Positions 6,245-44,325 of a stretch of 64,000 nt of DNA are shown here, piece by piece. Positions within the stretch are counted from its first letter, which is position 1. Every line of letters starts with the position of its first letter. The translations under genes were made by a program, and so were the position numbers. The DNA is from Nitrososphaera sp. (GTDB lineage Archaea; Thermoproteota; Nitrososphaeria; Nitrososphaerales; Nitrososphaeraceae): assembly GCA_039938515.1 (NCBI GenBank), contig JBDUUL010000024.1, positions 186,001 to 250,000 on the forward strand. The letters are read 5' to 3'. A model generated the notes under the pieces. It did not search any database. It saw only the letters and a list, made by a program, of their open reading frames with translations, and was not told the origin of the DNA.

Positions 6245-6246
6245 GC

Positions 6247-8103: not shown

Positions 8104-8152
8104 TAAGAAAAATAGCAACCCAGTATGCTATTAATGCTTCGCTTTAGCGTGC

Positions 8153-8170: not shown

Positions 8171-8188
8171 CTTAAGCTACGCAGAGCT

Positions 8189-8668
8189 ATGATAAGCGTT
8201 CGGGTAAAAACCCAGACTCTCGAAGTTGCCATCTCTTCGCCTAATGACACGCTCGCGGACATCATCAAGGCAGCTGTAACCGTGGCCGAGTCGCATCCAA
8301 TTCAAAACAGCCTGCAGACTCCCATATTCCTCAAGTCTGTCGAGCAACCAAAAGAACAGCAGAAACAGCTGATGGTGTTCGAACCAGAAAACTCTGCCCC
8401 TGAGAAGGCTGAAATGTCCGAGCCAAAGCGCAAGAAACTGGCAAGTGGAAAAGGCGAGCGAGCCATTGCTTACAACAAGACAAAGGAACTGATAGACAAG
8501 GACTTTTTCAGCACAGGGAGACAGATAGGCGAGATCCAGCAGTCCCTCTCGCAGAAGGGTTACGGAGTCAGCAGCAGAAAGCTCGCCGATGCGTTACTCA
8601 TGCTTGTCAGAGATGAGGTGCTGGTCAGAGAGGGAGAACGGGGGAGCTACACCTACAGGAAACCATGA
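8189..8668 (+). CDS. Hypothetical protein with winged-helix-like C-terminal domain
   Basis: 159 residues, ATG start with a TATA box at 8159-8164. The N-terminal 55 residues form a small mixed domain (MISVRVKTQTLEVAISS ... IIKAAVTVAE); a polar linker rich in K, Q and E follows (EQPKEQQKQL); residues about 95-157 read as a helix-turn-helix of the winged type (AYNKTKELIDKDFFSTGRQ, SSRKLADALLMLVRDEVLV, REGERGSYTYRKP). Family not recognised. It is divergent from 7420-8103 and runs towards the subunit C gene, which starts 84 bp after its stop, so it may be co-transcribed with that ATPase gene. Confidence 0.65.
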   Translation: MISVRVKTQTLEVAISSPNDTLADIIKAAVTVAESHPIQNSLQTPIFLKSVEQPKEQQKQLMVFEPENSAPEKAEMSEPKRKKLASGKGERAIAYNKTKELIDKDFFSTGRQIGEIQQSLSQKGYGVSSRKLADALLMLVRDEVLVREGERGSYTYRKP

Positions 8669-8752
8669 GCGCCCTTTGCAGTCCTAAATATTAAAATTGA
8701 CGATGACTCGTCGCTACAAAGAGCGGTAGCAAATGGACTACGGTGTGTTTTA

Positions 8753-9817: not shown

Positions 9818-9938
9818 AAGACGCCAGCCATCAGGCCCATTCTTGTGGTCGCCAGTCGTAAAGTGCAGCGCGCCCTGCCTGCTTCATTGAGCTGCGCGCC
9901 AGCTCATTTTTGTCCTTGATTGCCAGGCTGCTTTGGTC

Positions 9939-12101: not shown

Positions 12102-12275
12102 ATTGTTATTGCAAATTTTGCAAGGTAAAACGCTTTAAAATGTTTCCCTTTCTCAGCACCAGATGCTGACGTGTTCGGGGCGGCACCTGCAGGGCTTCGA
12201 CAAAGGGCGGCAGAAAACGGCGTCATGTCGAATGAGCGAATTGACGTAAAAGAGAGAAAAGGAGAGGTATCAGTC

Positions 12276-12617
12276 CTACTGGCCTAGGATGATAAACATC
12301 ATGACGATACCGTAGATAGCTATGGACTCTACCATACCTACGAAAATGAATACCTTTGACTGCATCTTTGGGTTGTCGCTGATAGCCGCAAGGCCTGCTG
12401 CTCCTACGAAGCCAAGGCCGACGCCTGCTCCGCCTGCCGCAAGGCCGAAGGCAAGACCCGCGCCAAGATATTTCGAGCCGGCCGCAGACGCGTTGGCGCC
12501 CGCGTTAGCACCCTGCGCAAAAGCCGACTCGCCAGAAGCCAAACCTGAATAACCAACTAGGGCAATAACTATAGCTGCCGCCGCTGAAAAAATTAACCGC
12601 TTAGAGTTCTTTTTCAT
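12276..12617 (-). CDS. atpK: A-type ATPase proteolipid subunit K (c ring), second set
   Basis: 113 residues: a signal-like N-terminus (about 1-34, ASGESAFAQG), an Ala/Asn-rich linker, then two membrane helices. The first is glycine-rich (GLAFGLAAGGAGVGLGF), the second carries Glu97 (VGMVESIAIYG), the ion-binding residue. The loop AISDNPKMQSK differs from AEKPEKFGQ in the first set. A TATA-like taattaaat at about 12640-12650 lies close to 26-30 nt before the ATG, so K appears to have its own promoter, which would allow the high copy number the ring needs. Confidence 0.94.
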   Translation of the reverse strand: MKKNSKRLIFSAAAAIVIALVGYSGLASGESAFAQGANAGANASAAGSKYLGAGLAFGLAAGGAGVGLGFVGAAGLAAISDNPKMQSKVFIFVGMVESIAIYGIVMMFIILGQ

Positions 12618-12680
12618 TTGAGGGCACAGCGAATAATGCCATATTTAATTATAACGAGGTGCGAATTTTGTAAATAATTG

Positions 12681-12827
12681 TCAGGCCTTTGAGAGGGCCT
12701 TGGTCTTGCTTGAGGAAATGCCGTCCTTGATTTCCTGCACCATAGAGTCGCGTTCACTCTTGAGTGCAGCCTTTGCTTTCTCAAAGTAGGCGGAAATCTC
12801 GTCAGCAGCTGTATTTTGCTTGCTCAC
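12681..12827 (-). CDS. 48-residue helical protein coupled to ATPase subunit D
   Basis: GTG 12827 overlaps the subunit D stop as GTGA, a sign of translational coupling. The 48 residues are one charged helix (SKQNTAADEISAYFEKAKAA, then LKSERDSMVQEIKDGISSSK). Position and composition suggest a stalk component, perhaps a shortened counterpart of subunit H, but it is less than half the length of H and I cannot assign a family. It ends 63 bp before the K start. Short enough to be missed by standard gene calling. Confidence 0.7.
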   Translation of the reverse strand: MSKQNTAADEISAYFEKAKAALKSERDSMVQEIKDGISSSKTKALSKA

Positions 12828-13534
12828 TTGGTGGACACCTTCTCCTGAATCAGGGGTGCTGCCTGTTTTTTCTGCTGCTCGGTATGCTGCATCTGCTCTG
12901 CGGTCTTTCTCTTGTCAAGTACCACTTTAACCTTCTTGAGTCGCACGAATTCTTCGCGCTCGCGTTCCTCAAGCGTGGCCTTGATAAAAATCATGGACTC
13001 CTGATACTGTGGAATTATCACGTATTCCAGCGCGTTGATAAGTTTCTGCGTGCGTTCAAGTTCCTTTGCCAGGCTGAAAATTGCATTCTCGTACTCGGCG
13101 GCCTTGCAAACGGCAGGGAGCATGGTCTTGATAAGCCTCGCCGCCTTGTCTACGGTGGCATTTGTCTCGGTAAACCCGTAGGACAGCTGGCTGCCTTCCT
13201 TGGTCTTTACCTGCAGGGTGGGGATCTTGACATCAACTATCCTGCGCACGTTGACGTCTACTTCCATAACGCTTGGCGTAGAGTTTGCAGTGGCCTCAAG
13301 CGTGCTTGTTCCAAGGCTCATGTACGAGTTGTAGACTGCGGTATATATCTCGCCCAGTGGGTTCCAAATGTCCTCTCTTGCCTTGTTGGCCTCTTCTATC
13401 ATCTCGTCTATTTTTTTGAGGAGCACTTCTCGCTTGTCGTCGAGGATCTTGTGCACCATCCTTGCCACTTGCATCGAGCGCCTTATCTTGATAAGCTCGA
13501 TTTTGGTTGCAGTTGCTCTTCTTCCAAAGGACAT
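12824..13534 (-). CDS. atpD: A-type ATPase subunit D, second set
   Basis: 236 residues from ATG 13534 (MSFGRRATATKIELIKIRRS), 5 bp after the stop of B. The N-terminal helix, the ARMVHKILDDKREVLLKKID segment and the C-terminal coiled coil with ALEYVIIPQYQESMIFIKAT are the D pattern. The extra C-terminal tail (KRKTAEQMQHTEQQKKQA) is Gln/Lys rich. An upstream in-frame ATG at 13633 lies deep in B and is not a likely start. It overlaps the 48-residue gene by 4 nt. Confidence 0.93.
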   Translation of the reverse strand: MSFGRRATATKIELIKIRRSMQVARMVHKILDDKREVLLKKIDEMIEEANKAREDIWNPLGEIYTAVYNSYMSLGTSTLEATANSTPSVMEVDVNVRRIVDVKIPTLQVKTKEGSQLSYGFTETNATVDKAARLIKTMLPAVCKAAEYENAIFSLAKELERTQKLINALEYVIIPQYQESMIFIKATLEEREREEFVRLKKVKVVLDKRKTAEQMQHTEQQKKQAAPLIQEKVSTK

Positions 13535-13539
13535 TCTTG

Positions 13540-14937
13540 CTAACCCTTCTTGTCTGACTTGTAGTACTGCTTGACGTGCTTTTCCTTTATCTTGGTAAGC
13601 TCTCCCTCCGGAAGGCTGGAGAGAACCTCCCACGCCCTTCCAAGGGTCTCGTCTAGCGGCCTGTTTTCGTCGGGTGCCTGCTTCAGGAAGTGAGTTTCAA
13701 ACATGTCGCCCGCGTCAAGGTATTTCAGGTCTACGCCGGTAAGCCCGGCCCTGCCGACGATTTCGGCCAGAGCCCTCACCTCCTGCGCTCTTGAATAGGC
13801 GTCATATAGCTGGTTGCCGACCTCCATGTGATCCGACCTTGTCTTGCCTTCGCCTACGCCGTCCTTCATGAGACGTGACAGTGACATGAGCACGTTTACC
13901 GGCGGGTAGATGCCCTTTCTAAAGAGGTCTCTTCCAAGGACTATCTGGCCTTCCGTGATGTAACCGGTCAGGTCAGGTATTGGGTGCGTAATATCGTCTG
14001 CAGGCATCGAAAGAATTGGAACCTGAGTTACACTTCCGTTCTTGCCCTTCACCCTGCCTGCGCGCTCGTAATTGTTTGCAAGGTCCGTGTACAGGTATCC
14101 AGGGTATCCCTTCCTGCCCGGCACCTCTTCACGGGCTGCGCTAATCTCTCGGAGTGCCTCTGCATAGTTTGTCATATCAGTCAAAATAGCAAGAACGTGC
14201 ATTCCAAGTTCAAAGGCGAGGTATTCAGCAACAGTAAGCGCAACCCGTGGGGTGATAATTCTCTCAATCGCTGGGTCGTCGGCAAGGTTCAGGAACAGCA
14301 CCGAGCGCCTGAGCGCGCCGGATTCCTCGAGGCTGCGCTTAAAGTATTGCGCTTCTGAGTACTGGACACCAATCGCGGCAAACACCACCGCAAAGTCCTC
14401 CTTTGTTCCGACCACCGCGGCCTGGCGCGCGATTTGCGCGGCAAGAATGTTGTGCGGCATGCCAGAGCCTGAGAATATCGGAAGCTTTTGTCCCCTGACA
14501 AGCGTAAGCATGCCGTCAATTACGGAAACGCCGGTCTGGATAAACGACGTCGGGTACTCGCGCCTCTCGGGGTTCATCGGCTCGCCGTTGACATCCAGGA
14601 ACTTGTCTGCAATGGGCTCAGGCAGTCCGTCGTTTGGTCTGCCTAGGCCATCAAACACTCTCCCCAAGAGTTCCTGCGAAACTGGCATCTCCATCGTCCT
14701 GCCAAGGAACTTGGCCTTGGTGCCGGTTATGGTGAGCCCAGTTGTGCCCTCGAACACCTGAACCACTGCCTTTCCGAATCCGACCTCCAGGACCCTCCCG
14801 AGCCTGCGTTCTCCGTCTGCAGTCTGGATCTCTACGAGCTCGTCAAACGAGGCCTTGGTTATCCCGTCAATAATCATGAGTGGGCCCTTGATCTCTGCTA
14901 CCTTGGTGTACTCTACGCCTGCGCTTGTGGAGGTCAT
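13540..14937 (-). CDS. atpB: A-type ATPase subunit B, second set
   Basis: 465 residues, the same length as the B of the first set. It carries [36 protein letters not shown] and [20 protein letters not shown]. It ends 5 bp before D and begins 1 bp after the A stop. The two B proteins in the window share all family landmarks but differ throughout, so each A gene travels with its own B. The C-terminal tail ends in [15 protein letters not shown]. Confidence 0.96.
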
Positions 14938-14938
14938 T

Positions 14939-16732
14939 TCAGGCAGAGACCTTCACCTCCTGGACTTGTCCGGTGCCCAGCTTGCGGAACTGTTCATCAA
15001 GTGACTTATCAAGATCACCCAGCTTTGCAAGCTGGTCTTCTGGGATCTCGAACTTGGCCTTTAGAAGTGACGTTATGATTGGCATCGCCCGGATGTCTGC
15101 AAGGGGCGTTCCAGCCCGCAGCGCCTTGAGCGCGTCCCTGTGGAACTTGACCATAAGCTTGACGAGTTTTATCTGCTTCTCTGGACTGCAGTACGTGTCG
15201 ACTTTGTCAAATGAGTTCTGCTGGAGTATGCCGATCTTTATCATCCTGGCGACTTCAAGAACCAGCTTTTCCTCGTCTGGCAGCGCCTCTGGTCCAAGCA
15301 GCCTTACGATCTCCTTCAGGGTGTCTTCTCTCTGAAGTGTGTGGTAGGACTCTGCCCTCAAATCGTACCATTCGCCGCTTACGTTCTCTTTCCACCACTT
15401 GGCGACATCCTCAAGGTAGCCCGAGTAGGACTGCATCCAGTTGATAGACGGGTAGTGACGCGAGTATGCTAGCCTGGTGTCAAGCGCCCAGAAGGTCTTG
15501 ATAAATCGGATGGTGTGTGTAGTCACGGGTTCCGTAAAGTCAGCGCCTGATGGCGAGACTGCGCCCACTAGTGTCACGGAGCCGGCCCTGTTTGGTGAAC
15601 CTAGAGCCCTTACCCTGCCTGCCCGTTCATAGAATTCTGCCAGACGCGAGGCAAGATATGACGGGTATCCCTCCTCTGCGGGCATCTCTTCGAGCCTGCC
15701 CGACATTTCGCGCAGAGCCTCGGCCCAGCGGCTCGTCGAATCTGCCACAAGAACCACGTCGTAGCCCATGTCGCGGTAGTACTCAGCCATGGTAACACCG
15801 GTGTAGATTGATGCTTCCCTGGCAGCCACTGGCATATTGCTGGTGTTTGCAACAAGAACAGTCCGTTCCATGAGCGGCCTGTTCGAGCGCGGATCTATGA
15901 GGTGTGGGAACTCGACTAGCACTTCGGTCATTTCGTTGCCGCGCTCGCCGCAACCTATGTAGACCACCACCTTGGAATCAGCCCACTTCGCGATCTGATG
16001 GAGCGTCACGGTCTTGCCTGTCCCAAATCCGCCGGGGATTGCACCCGTTCCCCCTTTGGCAATCGGGAAATAGGTGTCTATTACGCGCTGGCCGGTGATA
16101 AGCGGAACCGTCGGGTCGTAGCGTTCTGCATAAGGCCTTGGCCTTCGCACGGGCCACTTGTGGTACATTGCAAGGGGCGTCTTTAAGCCTGCCTTTTCTG
16201 TGGTAGCGACAATGTGGTTGATGTCATAATCGCCTTCCGATGCGATGTCGATCAACTTGCCTCCCTTGTGAGTAGGCGGCACGAGTATGCTGTGAATTAC
16301 AAGCGGCGATTCTTCGACCGTGCCCAGCACGGCGCCCGCTGCTACCTCATCGCCGTTTTTGAGGGCAGGCTTGAACCGGTATTTCTTTTTCATATCAACC
16401 GGCGTTGTAACTACGCCACGCCCAATGAACGCGCCAGACTTTTCGGCAATTTCGTCAAGTGGACGCTGGATGCCGTCATAGATTTTGCCGATGATTCCGG
16501 GCCCTAGGAGCACAGACAGCGGCTGACCTGTCCCGACCACCTGCTCGCCCGGCTTGAGACCTGATGTTGACTCGTAAACCTGAATGAATGCAACGTCCCC
16601 TGTAAGACGAATGACCTCGCCAATCAGTTTCGAGTCGCCGACCTCAACGGTCTCGTACATTTTGGCACTGGACATGCCGTCCGCTTTAACCGCCGGACCG
16701 CTGACCCAGACAATGCGACCTTTTGCAACCAT
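14939..16732 (-). CDS. atpA: A-type ATPase catalytic subunit A, second set
   Basis: 597 residues, full length. P-loop GGFGTGKT at about residues 234-241, then [19 protein letters not shown] and [20 protein letters not shown]. The Gly-Gly start of the P-loop differs from the GPFGSGKT more usual in archaeal A subunits and in the first set. It begins 5 bp after E and runs into B. As in the first set no intein interrupts it. Confidence 0.97.
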
Positions 16733-16737
16733 TTTCT

Positions 16738-17352
16738 CTACTCTCCTCTGAGCATCTGGGCTATATTTTTCCTTATTAAAGGTTTGAGCAGCTCTATTCG
16801 TGAATCAAGCGTGTTATCAAAACTCATCGAGCCGTCTGCGGACTTTGTCCTCGTGCCGCCAAGTACGTCAATATACTGATCCGACACTCGCGCCTTGAGC
16901 TTTGGGTTCTTCTTTTGCAGGTCCGCAACTATTTTCTTTATCAAATCAGAGTCGTTCTTGTTGCATTCGACAATAATTTCATTATAGCCTACAGCAGCTG
17001 CCGAGTCCTCTATCCCCTTTGAAACAAGCGCACGGTACCCGTCGCTCTTGTTAGAACCAGCCAGCTGGGAGCGGGCCTTTTCAAAAGCCTCGTTAACGCC
17101 GTTTTCAATCACCAGCAGCTCTTTGTTTCTGGTCGCAAGCCTGCTTGAACCGACGATCTGCCGCTTCAGGTTCTCTGCCTGTTTTTTTGAGGCCTCGATA
17201 ATGCGCGCACGTTCAGATTCGAGCTTGCCGCGGGAAGCTTCGAGATTCGAAATTGAATCACGGTAAGCAGAATCGATAGTTGATACAAGTTCGGATTCCT
17301 TTTGAGACAAAACTTTGGTAATTGCTCGCTCAAGAGCAGAGCTTGTACTCAT
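16738..17352 (-). CDS. atpE: A-type ATPase subunit E, second set
   Basis: 204 residues; a long N-terminal helix ([20 protein letters not shown], then [19 protein letters not shown]) and a C-terminal domain with [20 protein letters not shown] and [20 protein letters not shown], the latter matching the GG...d.....NT end of subunit E. It opens the E-A-B-D unit; on the minus strand a ggttaaaat TATA-like element lies at about 17378-17386, about 26-34 nt before the ATG, and an AAAGGAG is nearer the start. Confidence 0.92.
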
Positions 17353-31515: not shown

Positions 31516-31992
31516 ATGGCGAACAACGCCGCTGGCATCGCATTGACGGCCTTTATTGTTGCTGTTGCGGTAAGTTTCGGCTATTACCAGTTCCTGTATC
31601 TTCCTGAGGCAAACGCAAAGCCTGTTCTCCCAAGAGCCATAACAGATCCGACTGATACCACCAAGGTCACGATTGTCCCCGGCGCATCCGTCCAGTCAAA
31701 CACACGCAATTTCGAACCCAAGGACGCCAGGGGCGCTATTGGCCTAGCAAACAGGGTGACCTGGACAAACACCGACAACGTTCCTCATACAGTCACGTCA
31801 GACGACCACTACAAGGATGCATACAGTGGCTCGTTTAACAGCCTTGACCAGCAGGACAACGTCCCGGGCGGATACCTTTTGCCTGGCAAGTCGTTTACCT
31901 TCGTCTTTACCAAGGTAGGTACCTACTCTTACCACTGTGAGCCCCATCCGTGGATGCAGGCAAAGGTCGATATCATAGAGAACTTTGCATAG
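31516..31992 (+). CDS. Membrane-anchored plastocyanin-like cupredoxin
   Basis: 158 residues from ATG 31516 (MANNAAGIALTAFIVAVAVS); the frame is open further up to 31444. One N-terminal membrane anchor or signal, then a blue-copper domain: RVTWTNTDNVPHTVTSD gives the first His, TYSYHCEPHPWMQAKV gives Cys, His and Met ligands. Such type 1 copper proteins are abundant in ammonia-oxidising archaea and are thought to carry electrons outside the membrane. It is divergent from thioredoxin and precedes grpE by about 50 bp. Confidence 0.88.
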   Translation: MANNAAGIALTAFIVAVAVSFGYYQFLYLPEANAKPVLPRAITDPTDTTKVTIVPGASVQSNTRNFEPKDARGAIGLANRVTWTNTDNVPHTVTSDDHYKDAYSGSFNSLDQQDNVPGGYLLPGKSFTFVFTKVGTYSYHCEPHPWMQAKVDIIENFA

Positions 31993-32042
31993 GCTGGAAG
32001 GAAATTTTTTTATTATCTTTGCACGAGCGAGAACTGACGGGC

Positions 32043-32624
32043 TTGGAAGAGAACGACGAAGTTGAGATAGTAGAAGGGCCTGAGGAAGAGCGTGAAACAA
32101 TTGCCGTCGAGGCAAAGGACGAGGAAGAGGCAGAGGCCTTGAAGTCCGAGCTTCGGACCGTCAGGGAGGAGCTAAAGAAATCAAAAGAGCTGGCCGACTC
32201 GAACCTCAGCAAGGTGAAGTACCTCATGGCCGATTTTGACAACTATAGGAAGCAGATGGACAGGCACCTTGCCTCAAAAGTCGAGTCTAACAAGGCAGAA
32301 CTCCTCCTAAAGTTCGTCAACATACGGGATGATTACATCAGGGCGCTTGGCGTGGCAAAGCAAAAGAAGGTTGACTTGGTGGTTGTTGAGGGGCTGGAGG
32401 GAATACTGAAGAACATTGACTCGCTCCTGGCGTCTGAGGGCGTCGTCGAGATAGAGGCCGCAGGCACGCCTTTTGACCCGAACGTCCACGACGCCATTGC
32501 TTTTTCCCATAGGGCAGACGTACCGGAAAACACTGTCACCTCCGAAATCAGGAAGGGGTACATGCACAAGGACAAGGTGCTGCGCCCAAGCATGGTCGAA
32601 ATTTCACGCAGGCCTTCCCACTAG
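32043..32624 (+). CDS. grpE: GrpE nucleotide exchange factor
   Basis: 193 residues if TTG 32043 (MEENDEVEIVEGPEEE) is the start; a tttttttatt TATA stretch lies about 30 nt upstream, favouring a leaderless TTG. Acidic N-terminus, long coiled coil (LKSELRTVREELKKSKELAD), then the beta domain: LMADFDNYRKQMDR and GTPFDPNVHDAIAFSHRADV, ending GYMHKDKVLRPSMVEIS, all typical. GrpE releases ADP from DnaK. It heads the chaperone block grpE-dnaK-dnaJ-hsp20, which Thaumarchaeota obtained from bacteria. Confidence 0.92.
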   Translation: MEENDEVEIVEGPEEERETIAVEAKDEEEAEALKSELRTVREELKKSKELADSNLSKVKYLMADFDNYRKQMDRHLASKVESNKAELLLKFVNIRDDYIRALGVAKQKKVDLVVVEGLEGILKNIDSLLASEGVVEIEAAGTPFDPNVHDAIAFSHRADVPENTVTSEIRKGYMHKDKVLRPSMVEISRRPSH

Positions 32625-32768
32625 GTATGGACGAAAGCCAGCAGGACGACAGCCGTTTTGTGGAAATAGTGTTGCCTCGTTCAGCTATTATGCAACAACC
32701 CGAAAGATAATTAAAAATAACCATATTGCGACTAGAAGGACGGACTTTAAAACTAGGAGCACAAGAAA

Positions 32769-34640
32769 ATGGGCAAAATAATAGGTATAGACCTTGGAAC
32801 TAGCAACTCTGCGGCCGCTTCCATGATTGGGGGCAAGCCGTCAATTATCCAGGCCGCCGAAGGGACCTCAGTGGGGGGCAAGGCGTTCCCATCCGTTGTG
32901 GCATTTACCAAAGACGGTCAGCTTATCGTCGGCGAGCCTGCACGGCGCCAGATGATTTCAAACCCCGAAGGAACCGTAATTGCGGCAAAGCGCAAGATGG
33001 GGACGGACTTTAAGTTCAAGGTGTACGGCAAAGAGTACACCCCCCAGCAAATCTCTTCCTTTATACTCCAAAAGATAAAGCGCGACGCCGAGGCATTCCT
33101 TGGCGAGACCGTTGACAGGGCGGTTATCACCGTCCCCGCGTACTTTAACGACAACCAGAGGCAGGCGACAAAGGACGCAGGCGACATCGCGGGGTTAAAG
33201 GTCATTAGAATAATCAACGAGCCGACTGCCGCATCGCTTGCTTATGGGCTTGACAAGGCAAACAAGGACCTGAAGATAATGGTTTTCGACCTTGGCGGCG
33301 GGACGCTTGACGTTACCATCATGGAAATGGGCGGGGGCGTGTTTCAAGTAAAGAGCACTTCCGGCGACACCCAGCTTGGAGGAACAGATATGGACAACGC
33401 CCTGGTAGAGTTTGTCGTCCAAGAGTTCCGGAAGCAGTCGGGCATCGACGTCAGAACCGACAAGGCCGCAATGATGAGAATCCGCGAGGCCGCCGAAAAG
33501 GCCAAGATAGAGCTTTCAAACGTCGTCACTACTGAAATCAACCTGCCGTTTCTTGCATACGACCAGAGCGCGGGTCCCAAGAACCTTGTGCTTCCGCTGA
33601 CGCGTGCAAAGCTAGAAGAGCTTTTGAGGCCGATAATTGAGCGCTGCAGGCAGCCCATGATGCAGGCCCTGCAGGACGCCAAGCTCACTGCCGCAGAAGT
33701 TGACAAGATAATCCTAATCGGCGGCCCGACGAGGATGCCCATGGTAAGGCAGTTTGTCGCCTCGGTCACAAACAAGGAGCCGGAGCGCGGCATTGACCCG
33801 ATGGAGGCTGTGGCGATGGGCGCGGCTATTCAGGGCGCGATTATCTCGGGAGACGTTTCAACTGACATACTCCTCGTGGACGTAACGCCGCTGACGCTTG
33901 GGGTGGAGGTTCTTGGCGGGCTAAAGGAGCCGCTCATAGAACGCAACACCACGATTCCCACAAAGAAGAGTAAGGTCTTTACAACTGCCGCAGATTACCA
34001 GACGGCCGTCACGATTCATGTCGTGCAGGGCGAGCGTCCAATGGCGTCCGACTGTGTGTCACTTGGTATGTTCAACCTCTCGGGCATTCCCCCGGCGCCA
34101 AGAGGCGTTCCTCAGATCGAGGTGACTTTTGACATCGACGCCAATGGGATACTCAACGTGGCGGCAAAGGACCTTGCAACCCAGAAGGAAGCCAAGATAA
34201 CTATCACCGCGAACAACAAGCTTTCAAAGGATGAAATCGACAAGCTAAAGCGCGAGTCCGAGCAGTTTGCAGATGCGGACAGAAAGAAGAAGGAGGACGC
34301 AGAGCTCAAGAACGAGGCGGACAACCTTGTCTATGCGGCCGAAAAACTGGTCAAGCAGGATCTCAAGGACAAGGTCAAGCCGGAGCAGGCTGAGAGGATA
34401 AACAAGCTGTCACAGGAGATAAAAGACGCCCTTGCGGCAAACAACTCAGAGACTGTCAGGGCGAAGATTCAGGAGCTCAAGACAGCGCTAGGTGAAGTTA
34501 GCGCCGAGGCTTACAGGAATGCGGGAGCAGATCAGAGTCAGCAGCCAGGTTATGGCCAGACTGGACCGGAAGCAGGCCAGTCCTCAGCAAGCTACAGCGA
34601 GCCTGGCGCGGCAAGCGCCGGGCCAAACCCGTCGCCATAG
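32769..34640 (+). CDS. dnaK: Hsp70 chaperone DnaK
   Basis: 623 residues. Begins [20 protein letters not shown] (phosphate 1), later [17 protein letters not shown] (phosphate 2), [16 protein letters not shown] (adenosine), the linker [15 protein letters not shown] and a substrate domain with [20 protein letters not shown]. Lid helices end in a Gln/Gly/Ser-rich tail. Its own TATA-like ctttaaaa sits about 25 nt before the ATG, with 144 bp to grpE, so it can be transcribed separately. Full length for archaeal or bacterial DnaK. Confidence 0.98.
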
Positions 34641-34732
34641 CAGTCAGATGAGGCGAGCAGTGGCCGGGTCGCCTATACAGATATACTTCAGGCTTCCCCT
34701 TCTGATCGCTCGGGCTGCTAGGTGGAACATAA

Positions 34733-35842
34733 ATGAGCAACAATAAACGCGACTATTACGAGGTTCTCGGCCTTCAAAAGAGCGCAAGCAAGGACGACAT
34801 AAAGAACGCCTATCGCAAGCTCGCGCTGCAGTTCCATCCCGACAGGAACAAGGCTTCCGGGGCGGAAGAAAAATTCAAAGAGATTTCAGAGGCGTACGCC
34901 GTCTTGTCGGACGACGAGAAGCGCAAGCGCTATGACACGTACGGCCAGGTGGGAAGCGAGGAAGTGTTCCGCGGCTCCGAGTCCAACTTTGACGAGGTGT
35001 TCCGCGATATGGGCTTTGGCGGGTTTCGCGATATTTTCGATCAAATGTTTCGGGGGGGTGGGGGTTTTGGAGAAAACCTTTTTGGATTTGGAGGGGGCCA
35101 GCAGCGCAAGGGCAGGGACATTGTACTTGATGTAGACATGTCGCTGGAAGACGTGCTCCGGGGCCGCAAGCACGAGGCAGAGGTCCCGCGCCTTGAGAAA
35201 TGCGGGACATGTGCAGGGTCTGGAGCGGCGCCCGGCTCAAAACCCCGGAAATGCAGCGTCTGTGACGGGCAGGGGCAGACGAGGAGGGTTTACAGCCAGA
35301 ACCGCTACTCGACGTTTGTGACGCTTGAGCCCTGCAGGACATGCAGGGGCCAAGGGCAGATAATTGACCGGCCATGCGAGGCATGCCGCGGATCCGGCAG
35401 GGCACGCAAGCTTCGCAAGATAAAGCTCGATATCCCGGCGGGAGTCGAGGACGGCATGGCGCTTCAGGTTCGCGGCGAGGGCGAGGTTTCAGAATCCGGG
35501 ATTCCCGGCGACCTTGTGGTCAGGATTCACGTCAAGCCAAACCCGGTGTTTGAGAGAATAGAGGACGGCCACCTGCTCTACAACCTTGAAGTGAAATTTA
35601 CGGACGTTGCGCTTGGAAGCGAGCTCAAGGTTCCCACACTTGACGGCCACGGCGAAAAGGTAAAGCTATCACCAGGCACTCAGCCAAATACCATAGTCAG
35701 GCTCAAGGGCAAGGGGCTGCCGAGGTACGGCAGCTTTGGCAGGGGCGACCAGCTTGTTCGCGTCAATGTTAAGGTTCCAACAAAACTCAGCGACAGGCAA
35801 AAGTCGCTCCTAAAGGAGCTTGACAGGGAGCTCGAAGTTTAA
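34733..35842 (+). CDS. dnaJ: Hsp40 co-chaperone DnaJ
   Basis: 369 residues. J domain at 1-70 with the HPD tripeptide ([11 protein letters not shown]), a Gly/Phe region (about 105-125), a Cys-rich zinc domain with [24 protein letters not shown] and CEACRGSG, then the C-terminal substrate domains ([20 protein letters not shown]). All four zinc repeats are present, so this is a type I DnaJ. It follows dnaK by 92 bp. Confidence 0.97.
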
Positions 35843-35866
35843 ATATAATCTCGGCTGATAAACCAT

Positions 35867-36454
35867 ATGTCCTCACCGTTCGACGAGTTTTTCGGAAGAA
35901 GAAGGAGACGCGACTCCTGGTTTCCAGACATTGACGAGATGATGAGAGAGTTTGACCGCAACTTCCAGAACATGTTCAAGAACTTCGAGCAGCAGATCCC
36001 AAAGAATCTCGTCAAGGAGCGCAAGCTGGACGACGGGTCGGTAGTTAGGGAGACTGGCCCCATAGTGTGGGGATACTCGGTGAAGATAGGACCAGACGGC
36101 AAGCCTGTTGTCCGCAAATTCGGCAACATTGACGCTTTTCCAAACATGCTTGGCGGAGGAGTCGCTGTAAAGGAGGAACGCGAGCCTCTCATTGACGTGA
36201 TAAAGGGAAATGACGACCTGAGGGTGGTCGCAGAAGTGCCGGGGGTAAGCAAGGACGACCTCCGCGTCAGCGCGACGGAGAGCAACGTCACAATCGAGTC
36301 GGTTACCGGCGAGCCGCGCTATCACAAGCGCGTCGAACTGCCGGAGCAGGTGGACCCAAAGACTGCCAAGTCCAGCTACCGTAACGGGATACTCGAAGTA
36401 TCGTTCAAGCTGAAATCAACCGGTTCCGGCGGAATTCCGATAAACATAGAGTGA
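35867..36454 (+). CDS. hsp20: Small heat-shock protein Hsp20/alpha-crystallin
   Basis: 195 residues. The N-terminal arm is long (FFGRRRRRDSWFPDIDEMMR); the alpha-crystallin domain runs from about 100 to the end: EPLIDVIKGNDDLRVVAEVP, GVSKDDLRVSATESNVTIES and NGILEVSFKL, with an I-P-I-N-I motif at the C-terminus for oligomer assembly. It begins 24 bp after dnaJ and may share its message. ATP-independent holdase. Confidence 0.93.
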   Translation: MSSPFDEFFGRRRRRDSWFPDIDEMMREFDRNFQNMFKNFEQQIPKNLVKERKLDDGSVVRETGPIVWGYSVKIGPDGKPVVRKFGNIDAFPNMLGGGVAVKEEREPLIDVIKGNDDLRVVAEVPGVSKDDLRVSATESNVTIESVTGEPRYHKRVELPEQVDPKTAKSSYRNGILEVSFKLKSTGSGGIPINIE

Positions 36455-38490: not shown

Positions 38491-38940
38491 TCAGGCATAA
38501 TTGCCCTTGATTGAGGATTTGGCGCCGCAGGCTTCACAGATTAGAAAACCAAGCTTTTTGTTCTTTTCAGTACGAGTATCTGGACTCCCACAGACAGGGC
38601 ATTGGACATAATCTTTGACGTATCGGTCAAGCAAGGCTTGGAACGAAGAGGGAGTTTTGCGTCCAATAAAGATAACCCTGTCACCCACAATATACCCTGC
38701 AGATGCCAATTCCTTGTTAAGGTAAAAGAGTATCTTCTCCGGGTCTCTTCGAAGCGCTTTTGGAAACTCCATAAAGTTTCGGAAAATTGTCTTCTGACCA
38801 ACCCAAATTATCTGAGCGACTGGGACCTCGAGCCTAGCGGTAGCTTTTTTCGTCGTGCCGCCTAGTTTGTCCTGAAGGCGCTTGAGTAATGTCTCATAAT
38901 CAGCAAAACTTTGAACAGGAGTGCTACTCTTATCGCTCAC
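38491..38940 (-). CDS. Translation initiation factor aIF2 beta subunit
   Basis: 149 residues, the usual length. Core pattern: KKATARLEVPVAQIIWVGQK, TIFRNFMEFPKALRRDPEKI, LFYLNKELASAGYIVGDRVI and FIGRKTPSSFQALLDRYVKD, then the C4 zinc ribbon VQCPVCGSPDTRTEK ... ICEACGAKSSIKG. aIF2 delivers initiator tRNA with its alpha and gamma partners. Being a core gene it marks the return to the conserved chromosome after the tRNA-bounded segment. Confidence 0.95.
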   Translation of the reverse strand: MSDKSSTPVQSFADYETLLKRLQDKLGGTTKKATARLEVPVAQIIWVGQKTIFRNFMEFPKALRRDPEKILFYLNKELASAGYIVGDRVIFIGRKTPSSFQALLDRYVKDYVQCPVCGSPDTRTEKNKKLGFLICEACGAKSSIKGNYA

Positions 38941-39155: not shown

Positions 39156-39320
39156 GTGAAGCCAACAAGCGTAAGAAGTGCATCGACAAGCACCAAGAAG
39201 AATGCCGGCTATTGTATATCCTGTCACGCCCCTGCGACCAAAGAAGCGCTTTTCAGTGAGGTTGGGGCAAGCATCATCCAGAGATATTGTGACAAATGCC
39301 TACCAAACGCCGAGCGCTAG
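39156..39320 (+). CDS. Zinc-ribbon microprotein, Cx2C-AT-EA-CDxC family
   Basis: 54 residues from GTG 39156. A basic Ser/Thr-rich start (MKPTSVRSASTSTKK) is followed by YCISCHAPATKEALFSEVG and IIQRYCDKCLPNAER. The pattern Cx2C-x21-Cx2C with AT-x-EAL(F/Y) between the pairs is shared with the gene at 40805 and in weaker form with 43457, so these are paralogs and the frame is real. Likely a metal-binding or RNA/protein-binding knuckle; function unknown. Confidence 0.75.
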   Translation: MKPTSVRSASTSTKKNAGYCISCHAPATKEALFSEVGASIIQRYCDKCLPNAER

Positions 39321-39604
39321 GTCTCAGTCACTTTGTGCTTTGGTTTCAAATTAGTTGCCACGCCAGAGCGCCGGGTGGACTGGCGTATAGACAGTCGGCA
39401 GCAGGCATTGTTGACTTGAGGTCGTCGGTAAAACTCTAGCGGCAGCCAGATCTCGATAGGCCAGTACCAGCTCTTAACGTCAGGACACAGAGAAAAAGGC
39501 AAAGAATCGCAGCCGTGTTTGCGCCGCATTTTGTGGGTTGAACAGTTTCTGCAACAGCAAATTGCTTTGTCAGACAGACTACATGGATGTAATTTCAGTG
39601 TCAT
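39317..39604 (-). CDS. Possible small Cys-rich protein, convergent with the ribbon gene
   Basis: 95 residues from ATG 39604, with CCCRNCSTHKMRRKHGCDSL and a Trp-rich centre (VKSWYWPIEIWLPLEFYRR). Its stop lies in the same CTAG as the stop of 39156-39320. The amino-acid pattern looks like protein rather than noise, but no family, promoter or paralog supports it. Confidence 0.35.
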   Translation of the reverse strand: MTLKLHPCSLSDKAICCCRNCSTHKMRRKHGCDSLPFSLCPDVKSWYWPIEIWLPLEFYRRPQVNNACCRLSIRQSTRRSGVATNLKPKHKVTET

Positions 39605-39761
39605 GAAGCAATTAGTCGGTAATCAGCTGATTCTGCATCACAGTCGAGATCAAACCTAGGTACCATCCTTTAATAGCCATCTTGCATAGGTAAGTCATGA
39701 CCAGAGCTTTTGTCTTTTTGAATTCTAACAGCTGCTCGAAAAAGGATTCGCGTGCTAACTA

Positions 39762-39929
39762 ATGCCCATGCTAATGCTGAAGTGCAAAACTTGCGGCGAG
39801 GTTTTCCCCGGAACCTATGTTGATGAAAACAAAAACAAGACTCAAAGCATTATTGGCGGTTCAGTACATGTGTGTTCTCGGGGCCACAATAACCAGTATG
39901 CGGCAGATGACTTTATGGATTGGTCATAA
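39762..39929 (+). CDS. Zinc-ribbon microprotein
   Basis: 55 residues from ATG 39762 (MPMLMLKCKTCGEVFPGTYV). It has one Cx2C knuckle and a later VHVCSRGHNNQYAADDFMDW, that is a C-x3-H second half, so a CCCH-type ribbon. Two further in-frame ATGs (39768, 39774) are possible starts. The acidic end DDFMDWS recalls partner-binding tails. Not related in detail to the AT-EA family next to it. Confidence 0.7.
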   Translation: MPMLMLKCKTCGEVFPGTYVDENKNKTQSIIGGSVHVCSRGHNNQYAADDFMDWS

Positions 39930-40017
39930 AATGGTCATTCCTGTCCAAACGAAAAGCCCGTACCTTTGGTGCGTCGTGCTCTCGCTCGTTTAGATAGATA
40001 CCAAAACGCCTTAAGGG

Positions 40018-40185
40018 ATGGATGTCCATCAAGAGAGTGAATCATTTTCAAATACCTTGGTTGCCTCAGACACCCGACGAACAACGTCAGCAGGACTCAA
40101 AATTCATATCACAATGGAACGAAGAAGAAGAATACTGAACCCATTTTGCTCGCAGTGCCATAACGGGCTAACGAGCAACCACTAG
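40018..40185 (+). CDS. Possible 55-residue protein with one CxxC
   Basis: ATG 40018 opens 55 codons; a tttagata box at 39989-39996 is at leaderless spacing. The protein is Ser/Thr rich, then has MERRRRILNPFCSQCHNGLT. Only one Cys pair is present. A 33-codon frame starting at GTG 40038 (MNHFQIPWLPQTPDEQRQQD) overlaps it in another frame and is an equal candidate, so the locus is uncertain. Confidence 0.3.
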   Translation: MDVHQESESFSNTLVASDTRRTTSAGLKIHITMERRRRILNPFCSQCHNGLTSNH

Positions 40186-40330
40186 GGGAAAAGAACAGTC
40201 GGCACCGGCGGTATTTTTGACCATGAAAGCAGTTTATTTCAAGTACCACATTGGCTGCCCGAGTGGCGCAAGTTTTTCCCTCCCACTTTCCTTGGTTTAT
40301 ATTGCTTGCCAGAACACTGAATGATAACTA

Positions 40331-40600
40331 ATGTCATACGGAACATACGGAGGCGGCAGCCGCTACGGCGGTGGCGGCTTCGGTCCAAAACCGGTTGAAG
40401 CAGGAAAAGAATACGATGTGCAGATTACTGAGACGAGCCGAAAAGGTGACGGAATTGCCAGAGTGCAGGGCTTTGTGATCTTTGTGAAGGATGGAAAGAT
40501 GGGTCAGAATACAAAAATCAAGGTCATTAATGTCGGTGAAAGGTTTGCTACTGCGGAAACGGTAACAACACCTCCAGCAGCACCAGCCACTCAACAATAA
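40331..40600 (+). CDS. TRAM-domain protein with Gly-rich N-terminus (copy 1)
   Basis: 89 residues: a Gly/Tyr/Arg-rich head (SYGTYGGGSRYGGGGFG), then the TRAM beta barrel (KEYDVQITETSRKGDGIARV, QGFVIFVKDGKMGQNTKIKV, INVGERFATAE). Single-TRAM proteins in archaea bind RNA and act like cold-shock chaperones. The core is nearly the same as in 43990-44325, a clear paralog. A tttatatt box lies at about 40290-40297, roughly 34 nt before the ATG. Confidence 0.93.
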   Translation: MSYGTYGGGSRYGGGGFGPKPVEAGKEYDVQITETSRKGDGIARVQGFVIFVKDGKMGQNTKIKVINVGERFATAETVTTPPAAPATQQ

Positions 40601-40804
40601 ACCAGTACGGAACAAGAAACACTGCAACTGTGGCAACTACAACAAATGCAAGTACCACTTTATCCATTTTTGGCAAATTTCTCTTGGCTCAAGTCCTAGT
40701 CATAGAAGCTTAAAGTATCTTGAATCATTTCTGAGCGCACTGAATTAGCTTTCACTGAGCTGAACCGATGAAAAGCACTTGTACTACATACTCATTAGTG
40801 AAGT

Positions 40805-40972
40805 GTGGCAAAGCCATCTCAAGTTAGGGCAATCACAAAGAACTCCAAAAGATATTCTGATCCATGTTTAGAATGTGGCCGTCAAGCAACAATGGAAGCC
40901 TTGTACCACGAAGACGGCGTAATCGTTGCACGCAGATTGTGTGATAGGTGTCTTTCAAAGGCTCGCAAATGA
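40805..40972 (+). CDS. Zinc-ribbon microprotein, Cx2C-AT-EA-CDxC family
   Basis: 55 residues from GTG 40805. Basic start MAKPSQVRAITKNSKRYS, then DPCLECGRQATMEALYHEDG and VIVARRLCDRCLSKARK. It aligns without gaps to 39156-39320 across both cysteine pairs, sharing C..C...AT.EAL..E.G......R.CD.CL. Conservation of non-cysteine residues between two distant copies argues strongly for selection. Function unknown. Confidence 0.75.
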   Translation: MAKPSQVRAITKNSKRYSDPCLECGRQATMEALYHEDGVIVARRLCDRCLSKARK

Positions 40973-41257
40973 ACATCAGGGGATAGATGTAGCTGCTGTA
41001 ACAATTTGTGCTAGAATAACCGGATCTCGCAGACTCGCGTCCTGCGGCGTCATGATATAGACTTACTTTGCTTCGAAGAGAATCGTATCTGAAAGTTTGG
41101 TTCCAGCGCTCGACTGATGAATGTATCCGTGGTAGCCATTTTCGGATGTTGCTATTCCCTTTTTCCTGTCTGTTTGCAACGACCCTGGCTTGATTTAATA
41201 GCGGGCAAAACGTATTGTGTTTGTTCTTGTTTGTGCGCTGAAAATAATGATCAACTA

Positions 41258-41953
41258 TTGACGACTAGTCAACGCGCCTTGATCGAGGCGCAACTAAAGA
41301 AATACGATATCCCACTTCATATTCTCCAGAAGGTTGCCCAGGAAAATAATTGTCCCGTTGAAATCCAGGACAACAACGGCAAATCAACCAAAAGGCCTAA
41401 TTTGGATCGCATTCTCCCGATGATGGATAGCAAGTCGTTGCTTGTCCTTCAGCAGATATTTCTTGACTGTCAAGATTCTTATTCTCACTTTAGATTCGCG
41501 GTCTACCTTTCGTCAATGTATAATGCTATTCGATACAAGTATGTATTCAACGATAAGTCGCGTCGACAGGCTGACGGTGAATCTTCATTTGATCTTTCCA
41601 TTTATAATCGCGAAACCGGCTTGTTGGTTGCAGTTGCAGCCCAAAATAATGATCCCAAATTTAGTACTGCAAATAACGACTCGATTCAGCAATTTCTAGG
41701 GGCTGTTGCAAAATTGAGTGTAGACGTGCCCAGCCTTCGGACTGCGTACTATTCTTCATCGTATGGCTATACCGGTGATCCCCACTCGTTACATGAGATA
41801 TGGGAAGAGATCAGAAAGCAGCAAGTCGGGGAGGCTAGTGACAGACCAATCGAGATCAAATTTTTCGAGTACAAGGACAAGGTTTACTTTGAGATAAAGT
41901 CACCAGCTAAGAAGAACCGCGCCAGCGTTAAAACAGATCAGAAGACAATTTAG
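41258..41953 (+). CDS. Hypothetical protein in the microprotein region
   Basis: 231 residues from TTG 41258 (MTTSQRALIEAQLKKYDIPL); the frame stays open to 41117 but that extension is Cys- and Phe-rich and looks non-coding. Helical first half (MMDSKSLLVLQQIFLDCQDS), then FDLSIYNRETGLLVAVAAQN, a strand pattern a little like the core of a PD-(D/E)xK nuclease, though the catalytic Glu-x-Lys is not evident (AQN). C-terminus FFEYKDKVYFEIKSPAKKNR. No assignment made. It is the largest gene between the two TRAM genes. Confidence 0.6.
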   Translation: MTTSQRALIEAQLKKYDIPLHILQKVAQENNCPVEIQDNNGKSTKRPNLDRILPMMDSKSLLVLQQIFLDCQDSYSHFRFAVYLSSMYNAIRYKYVFNDKSRRQADGESSFDLSIYNRETGLLVAVAAQNNDPKFSTANNDSIQQFLGAVAKLSVDVPSLRTAYYSSSYGYTGDPHSLHEIWEEIRKQQVGEASDRPIEIKFFEYKDKVYFEIKSPAKKNRASVKTDQKTI

Positions 41954-42039
41954 GCATAAGGGCGAACCAGCGACTTCCGGATTAGTTCTTTAGAATGCGG
42001 ACACGCAGCAGTAGCCCGGGCCTTAGACCGCGTGACTTA

Positions 42040-42189
42040 CTATTTTTGCACTGCAATAGTGCGGTTAAGAAAGTCTCTGCAGCAAATGTCGGAGCAGAAA
42101 TTCAGCATTGTTCCAGTTGCGCGAGAATATTGTATCCCTTCATTGAACTCTTGGTACTCTTTGTTGCATGATTTGCAGTTTCTATACAT
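42040..42189 (-). CDS. Zinc-finger microprotein (Cx2C...Cx3C)
   Basis: 49 residues from ATG 42189; an in-frame stop lies shortly upstream, so the start is firm. MYRNCKSCNKEYQEFNEGIQ and TGTMLNFCSDICCRDFLNRT give Cx2C and Cx3C pairs separated by about 23 residues, like a TRASH/MYM knuckle. On the strand opposite to most neighbours. Confidence 0.6.
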   Translation of the reverse strand: MYRNCKSCNKEYQEFNEGIQYSRATGTMLNFCSDICCRDFLNRTIAVQK

Positions 42190-42584
42190 GATTATTGCTC
42201 GCCTTAATTTCGCCTTGCCCGCTTAAAGTTGTTTGGCGATGAGGTCGATCTAGGCCAGTACATAGGCCAAGCCTACGAAAGCTAAGCGACATCGCATTGC
42301 GGTCATTTAAGTAAACAAGACAAACACGAAGTACTTTGATTTGTTAGACCTAGTCGAGGCGCCTAGTATGCTTTATCAGCGGTTAGGAGGTTTACTGTGA
42401 CGGAACTCAGGCGCTGGGCCTGAAGCTGAAACCCGGCTTCTTCATAAAAAGCGGTCTTATGCTAGGATATAGTAGCATAAATAGCTGCCGCAGGACCAAG
42501 AAGATGCTAAACTTTCAAAGGAACAGGACATATTACTGGCATTTCGGATTCCGCATAGTTAAATAGCTGTAATTCATATAATAG
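42190..42584. other. 395 bp with no supported gene
   Basis: Only very short frames on both strands, none with cysteine pairs or codon structure that persuades me. It contains cataaaaagcgg (42438-42449) and the TATA element of the next gene. Confidence 0.5.
42559..42566 (+). promoter_or_regulatory. TATA box for the 42585 microprotein
   Basis: TTAAATAG ends about 19 nt before the GTG 42585 and is centred about 23-26 nt upstream, matching a leaderless archaeal promoter. Confidence 0.45.
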
Positions 42585-42704
42585 GTGTTGAGAAAATTTA
42601 ACAAAACAAATTTTGGCAGATGTGAATGCTCCTGCCACGGAAGGCCGAACACCGATTACTGCGGTTATTGTTCATCGTCTCACGTAAGGTACGCGCGCAA
42701 GTAA
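42585..42704 (+). CDS. 39-residue zinc microprotein
   Basis: GTG 42585 or TTG 42588 opens a 39-residue frame: LRKFNKTNFGRCECSCHGRP then DYCGYCSSSHVRYARK. It has CxCxxCH followed by CxxC, and a basic end. With a TATA box at leaderless spacing and an AT-rich upstream it is more likely real than chance. It ends 15 bp before the gene at 42720. Confidence 0.55.
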   Translation: MLRKFNKTNFGRCECSCHGRPNTDYCGYCSSSHVRYARK

Positions 42705-42719
42705 CTGTTTTTTCAAAGG

Positions 42720-42977
42720 TTGTCTGACTTGAGTCAAGTCGATACTGAGCAAGAACAGCAATTCCGTATGTTGTATGTCGCAGAGCTGAAGAAAAAGCGC
42801 GATAACGAGTTTAGCGATGAGAGAAGAAGGGTAAACTACCAAGCCGCAAAAACACCTGGCAGGCGAGGAGAAGTGATAATGCAGGATGAAATCAGCAAAG
42901 AGACAATCCGGCGATATTATCTGGTGGCAGGATCGTCCGCAAATCCGAACAAAGGTCACCAAGTCTTGCAAAGCTAG
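42720..42977 (+). CDS. Small charged hypothetical protein
   Basis: 85 residues from TTG 42720 (MSDLSQVDTEQEQQFRMLYV). Highly charged and helical (AELKKKRDNEFSDERRRVNY), no cysteines, ending in SSANPNKGHQVLQS. It lies 15 bp after the zinc microprotein and could share its message. Family not known; the strand opposite gives a hydrophobic frame that I regard as a shadow. Confidence 0.5.
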   Translation: MSDLSQVDTEQEQQFRMLYVAELKKKRDNEFSDERRRVNYQAAKTPGRRGEVIMQDEISKETIRRYYLVAGSSANPNKGHQVLQS

Positions 42978-43056
42978 ACAGAGCAACTTTCTCATTTCTA
43001 GTCCGCTGAAAAGACAGCAGCGTGCGGCCTTGGCCGCAATTGAAAGTTTAGCTGTC

Positions 43057-43452
43057 TTATTTCCTATCTCTGGCCGTAGAGTCAACTGCGTCCATTATTA
43101 CTTGAGTCGCTCGAACTTCAAAATTTGCAACGCAGTACTTTTCATTCCTTAATTTCGAATCAAGCCTGCCTTCGCCTATCAGACTAGATATTCTGTTTAC
43201 GGCAGCCAAGTAGTTCATTGACGTTTTCCAAGTGAGAACGATTTCGCAGTCTTCGCATATCCCGCGTTTTGCATTAGATCCAAAGATTTCGCCACATACT
43301 AGGCATTTACTGTACACGATTGACTTTCCCGTGCGCGGCGCGCCAACGCCAAAGTGAGCGGTATTGAAGCAGGCAATGCAGATGTTTTTGTTGCAAGTTG
43401 AACATGTATGGTAACTTTCGCCCTTGCCGCATGACTCACAAGGTTGAGGCAA
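43057..43452 (-). CDS. Multi-knuckle zinc-binding protein
   Basis: 131 residues from TTG 43452. Cysteines are arranged as CESCGKGESYHTCSTCNKNI, CIACFNTAHFG, CLVCGEIFGSN and CEDC, giving B-box-like or RING-like crossed pairs, followed by a helical C-terminus (SMNYLAAVNRISSLIGEGRL). It starts 4 bp after the stop of 43457-43639 and likely shares its message. A protein-protein or nucleic acid adaptor role is possible. Confidence 0.7.
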   Translation of the reverse strand: MPQPCESCGKGESYHTCSTCNKNICIACFNTAHFGVGAPRTGKSIVYSKCLVCGEIFGSNAKRGICEDCEIVLTWKTSMNYLAAVNRISSLIGEGRLDSKLRNEKYCVANFEVRATQVIMDAVDSTARDRK

Positions 43453-43456
43453 ACCG

Positions 43457-43639
43457 CTACAGATCCTTTCCTAACTTTCCAGAACAGGTATTACAGTATT
43501 TTTCAACACTTGTGACACCGTCTCCTACGTCAAAGTATGCGTCAATGGTCGCCAGTTTCTCGCATGTCGTACAGTACTTTTGTTTCTTGCCAGAAAAGTG
43601 GCTCTCGATGCCTTCTAGCCGCAGCAGGATTTTTGACAG
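43457..43639 (-). CDS. Zinc-ribbon microprotein, third AT-x-(E/D)A member, no canonical start
   Basis: From CTG 43639 the frame encodes 60 residues: KILLRLEGIESHFSGKKQKY, CTTCEKLATIDAYFDVGDG and VEKYCNTCSGKLGKDL. The spacing Cx2C-x22-Cx2C with ATIDAYF matches 39156 and 40805. An in-frame TAA lies just above at about 43652, and no ATG, GTG or TTG exists between. Either CTG or ATC is used, or one base has been lost in the A5 run near 43630 (a GTG at about 43650 is in a neighbouring frame). It sits directly before 43057-43452. Confidence 0.45.
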   Translation of the reverse strand: MSKILLRLEGIESHFSGKKQKYCTTCEKLATIDAYFDVGDGVTSVEKYCNTCSGKLGKDL

Positions 43640-43830
43640 AGGAGAATCACTTTAACCGTCCAAAGCTGAACAAATCCAAGCCTATCTCGAGTTGGCTGCT
43701 AGACAGAGGGTCAAGAAAGTGGGCAATCATCAGTCGCAGTATGTCAGCAGCACATAAGAACCTACTCGGCCATCCCAACCATTCTAGCGGGTATTTCCCC
43801 GCTCACGGGAACTTGAACCTTGAATTTTAA
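43633..43830 (+). CDS. Possible 65-residue basic protein
   Basis: TTG 43633 begins MTEENHFNRPKLNKSKPISS, then WLLDRGSRKWAIISRSMSAA and HKNLLGHPNHSSGYFPAHGN. The composition looks like a real basic protein and it is divergent from the zinc genes, but its start overlaps the region where 43457-43639 begins, so both starts cannot be as drawn if transcripts are leaderless. No family known. Confidence 0.35.
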   Translation: MTEENHFNRPKLNKSKPISSWLLDRGSRKWAIISRSMSAAHKNLLGHPNHSSGYFPAHGNLNLEF

Positions 43831-43989: not shown

Positions 43990-44325
43990 TTAGCTTTGCG
44001 CCGGCTCCTCTTTCGAGTCTGTACTTGCTGCCTGGGTCTGCCCAGAAGAACTTGACGATACTTCCGCTGTCGCAAACCTTTCGCCAACGTTTGTGATCTT
44101 TACCTTGACCTTTTGTCCCATCCTTCCTCCCGCTACAAATATGACAAATCCCTGCACTCTTGCGATGCCGTCGCCTTTTCTGCTCGTTTCCGTAACCTGT
44201 ACTTCGTATTCCTTTCCAACTTCTACGGGCTTTGGACCGCCAAAGCCGCGGCTGCCTCCATAACCTCTGTTGCCGGAGCTGTTGTAGCCGCCTCTTCCTC
44301 CATATGATGACATTGTAATCGCCAT
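43990..44325 (-). CDS. TRAM-domain protein with Gly-rich N-terminus (copy 2)
   Basis: 111 residues from ATG 44325 (ATG 44313 also possible). Gly/Tyr/Arg-rich head (SSYGGRGGYNSSGNRGYGG), TRAM core (KEYEVQVTETSRKGDGIARV, QGFVIFVAGGRMGQKVKVKI, TNVGERFATAEV) and an acidic Ser/Gln tail (SKEEPAQS). The core matches 40331-40600 at most positions; head and tail differ. A TATA box lies at leaderless spacing. RNA chaperone role inferred from the family. Confidence 0.93.
   Translation of the reverse strand: MAITMSSYGGRGGYNSSGNRGYGGSRGFGGPKPVEVGKEYEVQVTETSRKGDGIARVQGFVIFVAGGRMGQKVKVKITNVGERFATAEVSSSSSGQTQAASTDSKEEPAQS

Follow-up and report, generated by a model that had tools for sequence, protein, structure and literature searches.

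The 64,000-nucleotide stretch of Nitrososphaera sp. DNA analysed here (the window), part of a 2.56-Mb genome, carries a group of very short genes for Cys-rich proteins, among them three members of a family that we term A. Judged from profile searches, family A is a previously unnamed family that is restricted to the Nitrososphaeraceae, soil ammonia-oxidising archaea, and has multiplied there; we found no description of it in the searchable literature, which is partial in coverage. Our tentative interpretation, to which we give somewhat less than an even chance, is that the region is one instance of a locus that is partly conserved in Nitrososphaera and carries several stand-alone metal-knuckle microprotein families, A being the dominant one, and that the family A proteins may act as protein-binding zinc adaptors.

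The three family A frames (39156, 40805 and 43457, named after their lower coordinates) are paralogues. A profile seeded with them collected 43 members from the window and further loci compared with it, all in one common register with the signature CxxC-x3-AT-x-EALF...RYCDxC over about 55 amino acids. The invariant columns of a 26-row alignment are C, C, A, T, C and C, and conservation includes the non-Cys residues A, T, E, F, R/K, Y and D. A profile search of 296 Nitrososphaeria genomes returned matches in 44, all of them Nitrososphaeraceae and none outside; the distribution rests on this search, as a contig scan with narrow patterns recovered only four loci from Nitrososphaera metagenome-assembled genomes. 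Copy numbers, which are lower bounds from the best 21 candidates per genome, amount to at least 16 in the genome of the window and at least 18 and 10 in two complete relatives (G015 and G014, respectively); with 40805 as the query, 14 matches were obtained within its own genome. The copies are clustered: 10 of the 16 have a neighbouring copy within 5 kb, against a random mean of 0.9 (p = 5e-5), and the family is found at about nine further places in this genome. The closest paralogue of 39156 (G000:C15:91672) is 74% identical in DNA, with a ratio of non-synonymous to synonymous substitutions (dN/dS) of ~0.25. In a tree of limited support, 43457 groups with copies from five species that are linked to the gene of a larger zinc-ribbon protein, protein E, and the remaining copies suggest a lineage-specific expansion.

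AlphaFold, run with eight family A sequences, returned a metal-free model with a predicted local distance difference test score (pLDDT) of 80, in which a CxxC knuckle, a hairpin (residues 29-35/38-44) and a second CxxC at a helix (residues 49-53) follow each other. The fold is thereby predicted to be treble-clef-like, with a single zinc finger. A Foldseek search of 350,542 PDB chains placed the N1 domain of ClpG, a disaggregase (PDB code 8p66), at the top, with a probability of 0.92, a template modelling score of 0.56 and a root mean square deviation of 1.0 over 33 columns. The second match was HVO_2753, an archaeal zinc micro-protein, and neither match is significant alone. The plasmid-encoded ClpK N1, which is the 8p66 domain, aligns with family A in the common register CxxCGxxAT...G...CD. 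When family A was compared by hhalign with the zinc domains of ClpK, ClpG-like proteins and ClpE, the score was 22.6 (probability 67), against 8.6-15.1 for seven other zinc families of the same genome; 22.6 was reached by one of 300 column shuffles in which the Cys columns were held fixed. The zinc domains of ClpG N1, ClpE and McsA hold Zn and were related to each other by the authors of the N1 study, and N1 targets aggregates via a hydrophobic strand (PMC10641755).

We favour the adaptor interpretation because the three frames are paralogous and because the known structure that comes closest is that of an adaptor-type domain that binds proteins; our degree of belief in it stems from the Foldseek, hhalign and ClpK N1 register comparisons, together with the published aggregate targeting by ClpG N1. 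Many small adaptor proteins had been one suggestion of the initial annotation, and it is the one that fits best. We infer metal binding, partner binding and all downstream roles of family A along the following lines. The four Cys residues would hold the hairpin, whose exposed residues, those of the conserved EALF strand, would bind a partner or substrate protein in the manner of ClpG N1, ClpE and McsA. Paralogues with differing tails might then have differing specificities, and the partner of the E-linked subfamily would probably be protein E, encoded directly downstream. A more far-reaching version, that the Nitrososphaeraceae possess expanded free-standing ClpG-N1/McsA-like adaptors (A, E and neighbours) that select proteins for quality control or regulation, with one target per paralogue, strikes us as rather improbable.

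Several points weigh against the adaptor interpretation. The E-value of the Foldseek match to 8p66 is 0.61, the profile match is modest, and a PDB profile search with A1 lists neither 8p66 nor ClpE at E≤1. The fourth ligand of ClpK N1 is a His, as opposed to the Cys of family A, and the N1 residues V17 and L21 are unmatched, their places being taken in family A by an Ala and a variable position; a conserved Phe/Tyr of family A lies between the two aligned positions. The linkage to E is limited to one family A subfamily. We know of no ClpG/ClpE-type ATPase partner here; the longer frames in the window include no recognisable AAA+ gene, the genome not having been searched for such partners. Finally, haloarchaeal four-Cys micro-proteins do not always bind zinc, a matter that AlphaFold cannot decide (PMC11241148).

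The genes of the locus and its flanks are the following:
38491..38940, minus strand: aIF2-beta gene (NCBIfam PRK03988, above cut-off), a neighbour outside the conserved locus
39156..39320, plus strand: family A microprotein, 54 amino acids, GTG start, CxxC...CxxC (profile E = 2e-22)
39762..39929, plus strand: family B microprotein, 55 amino acids, CxxC and CxxxH
40331..40600, plus strand: TRAM-domain protein (TRAM1), 89 amino acids (PF01938, E = 4.7e-11, above curated cut-off), TTTATA at -35
40805..40972, plus strand: family A microprotein, 55 amino acids (profile E = 8e-20)
41117..41953, plus strand: uncharacterised protein F, open frame of 278 amino acids
42040..42189, minus strand: family C microprotein, 49 amino acids, CxxC and CxxxC, zf-FCS/L24e-like
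42585..42704, plus strand: family D microprotein, 39 amino acids, CxCxCH...CxxC
42720..42977, plus strand: small basic protein G, 85 amino acids, without a Cys motif
43057..43452, minus strand: protein E, 131 amino acids, TTG start
43457..43639, minus strand: family A microprotein of the E-linked subfamily (profile E = 2e-18), its 3' end just upstream of E
43990..44325, minus strand: TRAM-domain protein, 111 amino acids (PF01938, E = 1.7e-14, above curated cut-off), TTTATA at -26

The initial annotation had described at least six short genes with CxxC pairs and a larger one, 43057, on both strands between TRAM genes. All seven frames are present at these positions, both strands are indeed used, and both flanking genes are TRAM members; two CxxC pairs, however, occur only in 39156, 40805, 43457 and 43057, the pairs of 39762, 42040 and 42585 being variant (in the last, CxCxC and CxxC). 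The seven frames sort into five families, A to E, and every one of them has relatives in other genomes.

The density of such frames exceeds chance. Four two-CxxC frames lie within 4.85 kb, as compared to a mean of 0.20 in 2000 first-order Markov-resampled sequences, one of which reached four. Five 20-kb stretches not chosen for family A contain 11 such frames per 100 kb (3.2 expected), the density figures being based on 300 kb of stretches from the same genome. Other family A loci of this genome are equally dense, so the cluster is not unique: the whole genome is rich in two-CxxC small genes, and the locus is one dense spot among several.

Absence from close relatives and synonymous-like decay had been proposed as grounds for doubting the frames; the translations are found in close relatives, and purifying selection was seen in place of decay. 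Calculated by the Nei-Gojobori method on unsaturated pairs of relatives, dN/dS is 0.04-0.12 for B, 0.06 for E, 0.09 for G and 0.10-0.15 for E-linked family A. Comparisons with the window itself are mostly saturated at synonymous sites, with the synonymous proportion always exceeding the non-synonymous one. Selection is thus strongly purifying (dN/dS 0.04-0.15) where measurable. That the CxxC frames are chance products and not genes has a negligible probability: although random sequence yields about 0.2 two-CxxC frames in this length and 43457 has no standard start codon, the frames have orthologues, dN/dS well below 1 and a conserved order. On these grounds chance origin is ruled out for 39156, 39762, 40805, 42040, 42585 and 43057, which are real conserved genes.

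Frame 43457 contains no ATG, GTG or TTG, and a CTG (43637-43639) stands at the position of the ATG or GTG of its orthologues, which points either to a rare start codon or to a gene in early decay. The window, G005, G008, G010, G016 and G017 share the tandem of A followed, after a short gap, by E; 43457 and 43057 appear to form a single transcription unit. A TATA-like hexamer at -45 to -18 precedes two of the 11 genes of the locus, both TRAM, and is absent before the other nine; the proposal that the small genes have their own promoters is not borne out as a general rule.

Protein E combines a B-box-like cross-brace at its N-terminus with a second CxxC...CxxC ribbon and a helical C-terminus. 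It is present in 19 of the 296 Nitrososphaeria genomes, all within the Nitrososphaeraceae, and is about 60% identical to its relatives, with all zinc ligands invariant. The B-box model PF22586 matches nine of 12 E members below its cut-off (best E = 2.5e-4), and 43057 itself scores 15.1 bits against the B-box, short of the Pfam cut-off of 27. At another place (L095:10650-11093), a divergent family A member comes directly after the gene of a B-box-like Cys protein, a pairing of the type seen with E and A.

Family B has members in 21 of 41 genomes, the window's own among them, with 60-69% identity within the genus and one copy in most Nitrososphaera genomes. Family D has matches in 15 of 41 genomes, with identities of up to 79%, and relatives of family C occur throughout much of the genus. 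The family C protein 42040 stays below the curated cut-offs of L24e (NCBIfam; E = 1.1e-4, 22 bits where 73 are required) and zf-FCS (17 bits, 22.4 required). A second copy at G000:C10:110473 encodes an identical protein, with two synonymous differences and diverged upstream sequence. No microprotein scores above cut-off in Pfam or NCBIfam; among the locus genes scanned, only TRAM and aIF2-beta pass. Homology of protein F begins at ~41267, which probably places its true start downstream of the first ATG, with TTG 41258 as one candidate. Homologues of F are spread over most of the genus, and weak ones exist in two further families of the order. Protein F has no Pfam or PDB match, and none of A, E and F had a real match when its profile was searched against PDB sequences; an AlphaFold model of F built without relatives reached a pLDDT of 50 and was left unused. 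D, Q, N, Y and S residues of F are invariant in the genus, and its gene often adjoins that of E. Homologues of G adjoin B, TRAM, F or A in relatives.

Some other features were seen in passing. A repeated microprotein family, KYCSRC...CPCC...LR, has many dispersed copies in the same genome (L084, L089 and L090), some beside family A, and a repeated small Cys protein, CPCxQCDH...CVETDCxCCNLE, is found at L083:10945, L087:18726, L087:8406 and L088:13351. Within the window, the zinc locus is preceded at a short distance by GrpE-, DnaK-, DnaJ- and Hsp20-like genes (31950-36454), and two V/A-type ATP synthase gene sets lie close together at 856-17352.

Gene order, obtained by mapping the family profiles onto the loci of relatives, is partly conserved and reshuffled between species. 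A core of A, E, B (39762), a 241-amino-acid protein, TRAM and the 85-amino-acid protein G recurs in several species. In G010 and G008, A, E, A, B, F, TRAM and G form a single run; the orders are A, TRAM, G, B, F, E, A in G005, G, B, F, E, A in G017, F, B, A, E, A in G016, A, D, A, E, F, A in G015 and A, E, F in G013. The suggestion that the genes belong to one system agrees with this recurring core of neighbours, but not with the dispersal of family A over its own genome.

The neighbourhood bears on a doubtful but serious alternative, in which the proteins of family A and their neighbours regulate by binding nucleic acid, as small transcription or RNA factors, and TRAM proteins are their functional partners. 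TRAM adjoins the locus in eight genomes (the window, G003, G005, G007, G008, G010, G012 and G019), stand-alone archaeal TRAM proteins are RNA chaperones that affect the transcriptome (PMC6705878), a small zinc protein of Halobacterium, Brz, acts as a transcriptional regulator (PMC2253796), and family C resembles ribosomal L24e, below cut-off. However, TRAM is unlinked to the locus in four near-complete genomes (G011, G013, G014 and G015) and, unlike family A, is present in every genome tested; aIF2-beta was not found in any fetched syntenic locus of relatives, and no nucleic-acid-binding family matched above cut-off. Of the translation- or RNA-linked set envisaged initially, what stands is a weak link through the adjacent TRAM genes. 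Zinc microproteins adjoin only some of the TRAM copies. TRAM1 itself (40348-40557) shares 87% DNA identity over 210 bp with a paralogue (G000:C12:72084-72293), which suggests a recent duplication.

The reshuffled gene order is also what a lineage-specific 'dark matter' neighbourhood would show, one held together through local duplication and the traffic of mobile elements or viruses, without a single shared function and with some members possibly serving in defence or counter-defence. N. gargensis has among the highest archaeal shares of dark-matter islands, many of them rich in mobile genes (PMC4158269), and the predicted family A fold is similar to that of uncharacterised small phage proteins. 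We nevertheless consider this unlikely: family A has no relatives in IMG/VR viral contigs, phage records or plasmid records, a PHROG scan of the frames gave matches at E≥0.004 only and none clear, visual inspection of the longer frames surrounding the locus revealed no integrase or transposase, and selection is strongly purifying, with B and E mostly single-copy across the genus. Ammonia oxidisers need copper, and the many Cys knuckles would also suit small thiolate proteins that store or sense metal, buffering zinc or copper; some haloarchaeal CPxCG proteins carry a non-zinc metal (PMC11241148). With four ligands only per protein, a fixed predicted fold and conservation that reaches well beyond the Cys residues, such a role appears quite improbable. 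Family A is a well-bounded family, multiplied in globally important soil ammonia oxidisers, with defined subfamilies and a conserved tandem partner in E; the fold lead makes it directly testable, and annotation of small proteins in the cultured N. viennensis can draw on named targets that can be aligned.

Of the known systems, ClpG/ClpK N1, ClpE and McsA appear to share with family A the register CxxC-x2/3-AT...G...(Y/L)CD-x-(C/H), the size and the predicted hairpin between the ligand pairs (PMC10641755, PDB 8p66). They differ in that the zinc domain of ClpG and ClpE is the N-terminal part of an ATPase, whereas family A is stand-alone, and in that the substrate-binding residues of ClpG N1 are unlike those of family A. 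The N-terminus of E has the ligand spacing of zf-B_box (PF00643, PF22586), but the window protein stays below the curated cut-off and has no RING or tripartite context. Both flanking genes belong to the stand-alone TRAM RNA chaperones by PF01938 (PMC5572242, PMC6705878). Brz of Halobacterium salinarum is similar by description, as a small archaeal zinc finger protein, and differs in that its transcriptional effect is known (PMC2253796). The size and ligand definition of archaeal zinc finger micro-proteins (<70 amino acids, two ligand pairs) applies to 39156, 40805 and 43457, and to 39762, 42040 and 42585 with variant pairs; by sequence, the microproteins are thus members of this known kind (PMC10716476, PMC6562870), and family A is a lineage-specific expanded family within it, with zinc predicted. 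Work on such proteins has centred on haloarchaea, in which the majority lack close relatives and deletion of many of them produces a phenotype (PMC11241148). Those of Haloferax volcanii (HVO_2753, HVO_0758) are likewise stand-alone, below 70 amino acids, of CxxC-type knuckles and many per genome (PMC10716476, PMC6562870, PMC11241148), but carry C(P)XCG motifs, mostly absent in family A, and a PDB profile search showed no sequence relationship. What sets Nitrososphaera apart from H. volcanii is a single large family of paralogues, together with a neighbourhood that is conserved.

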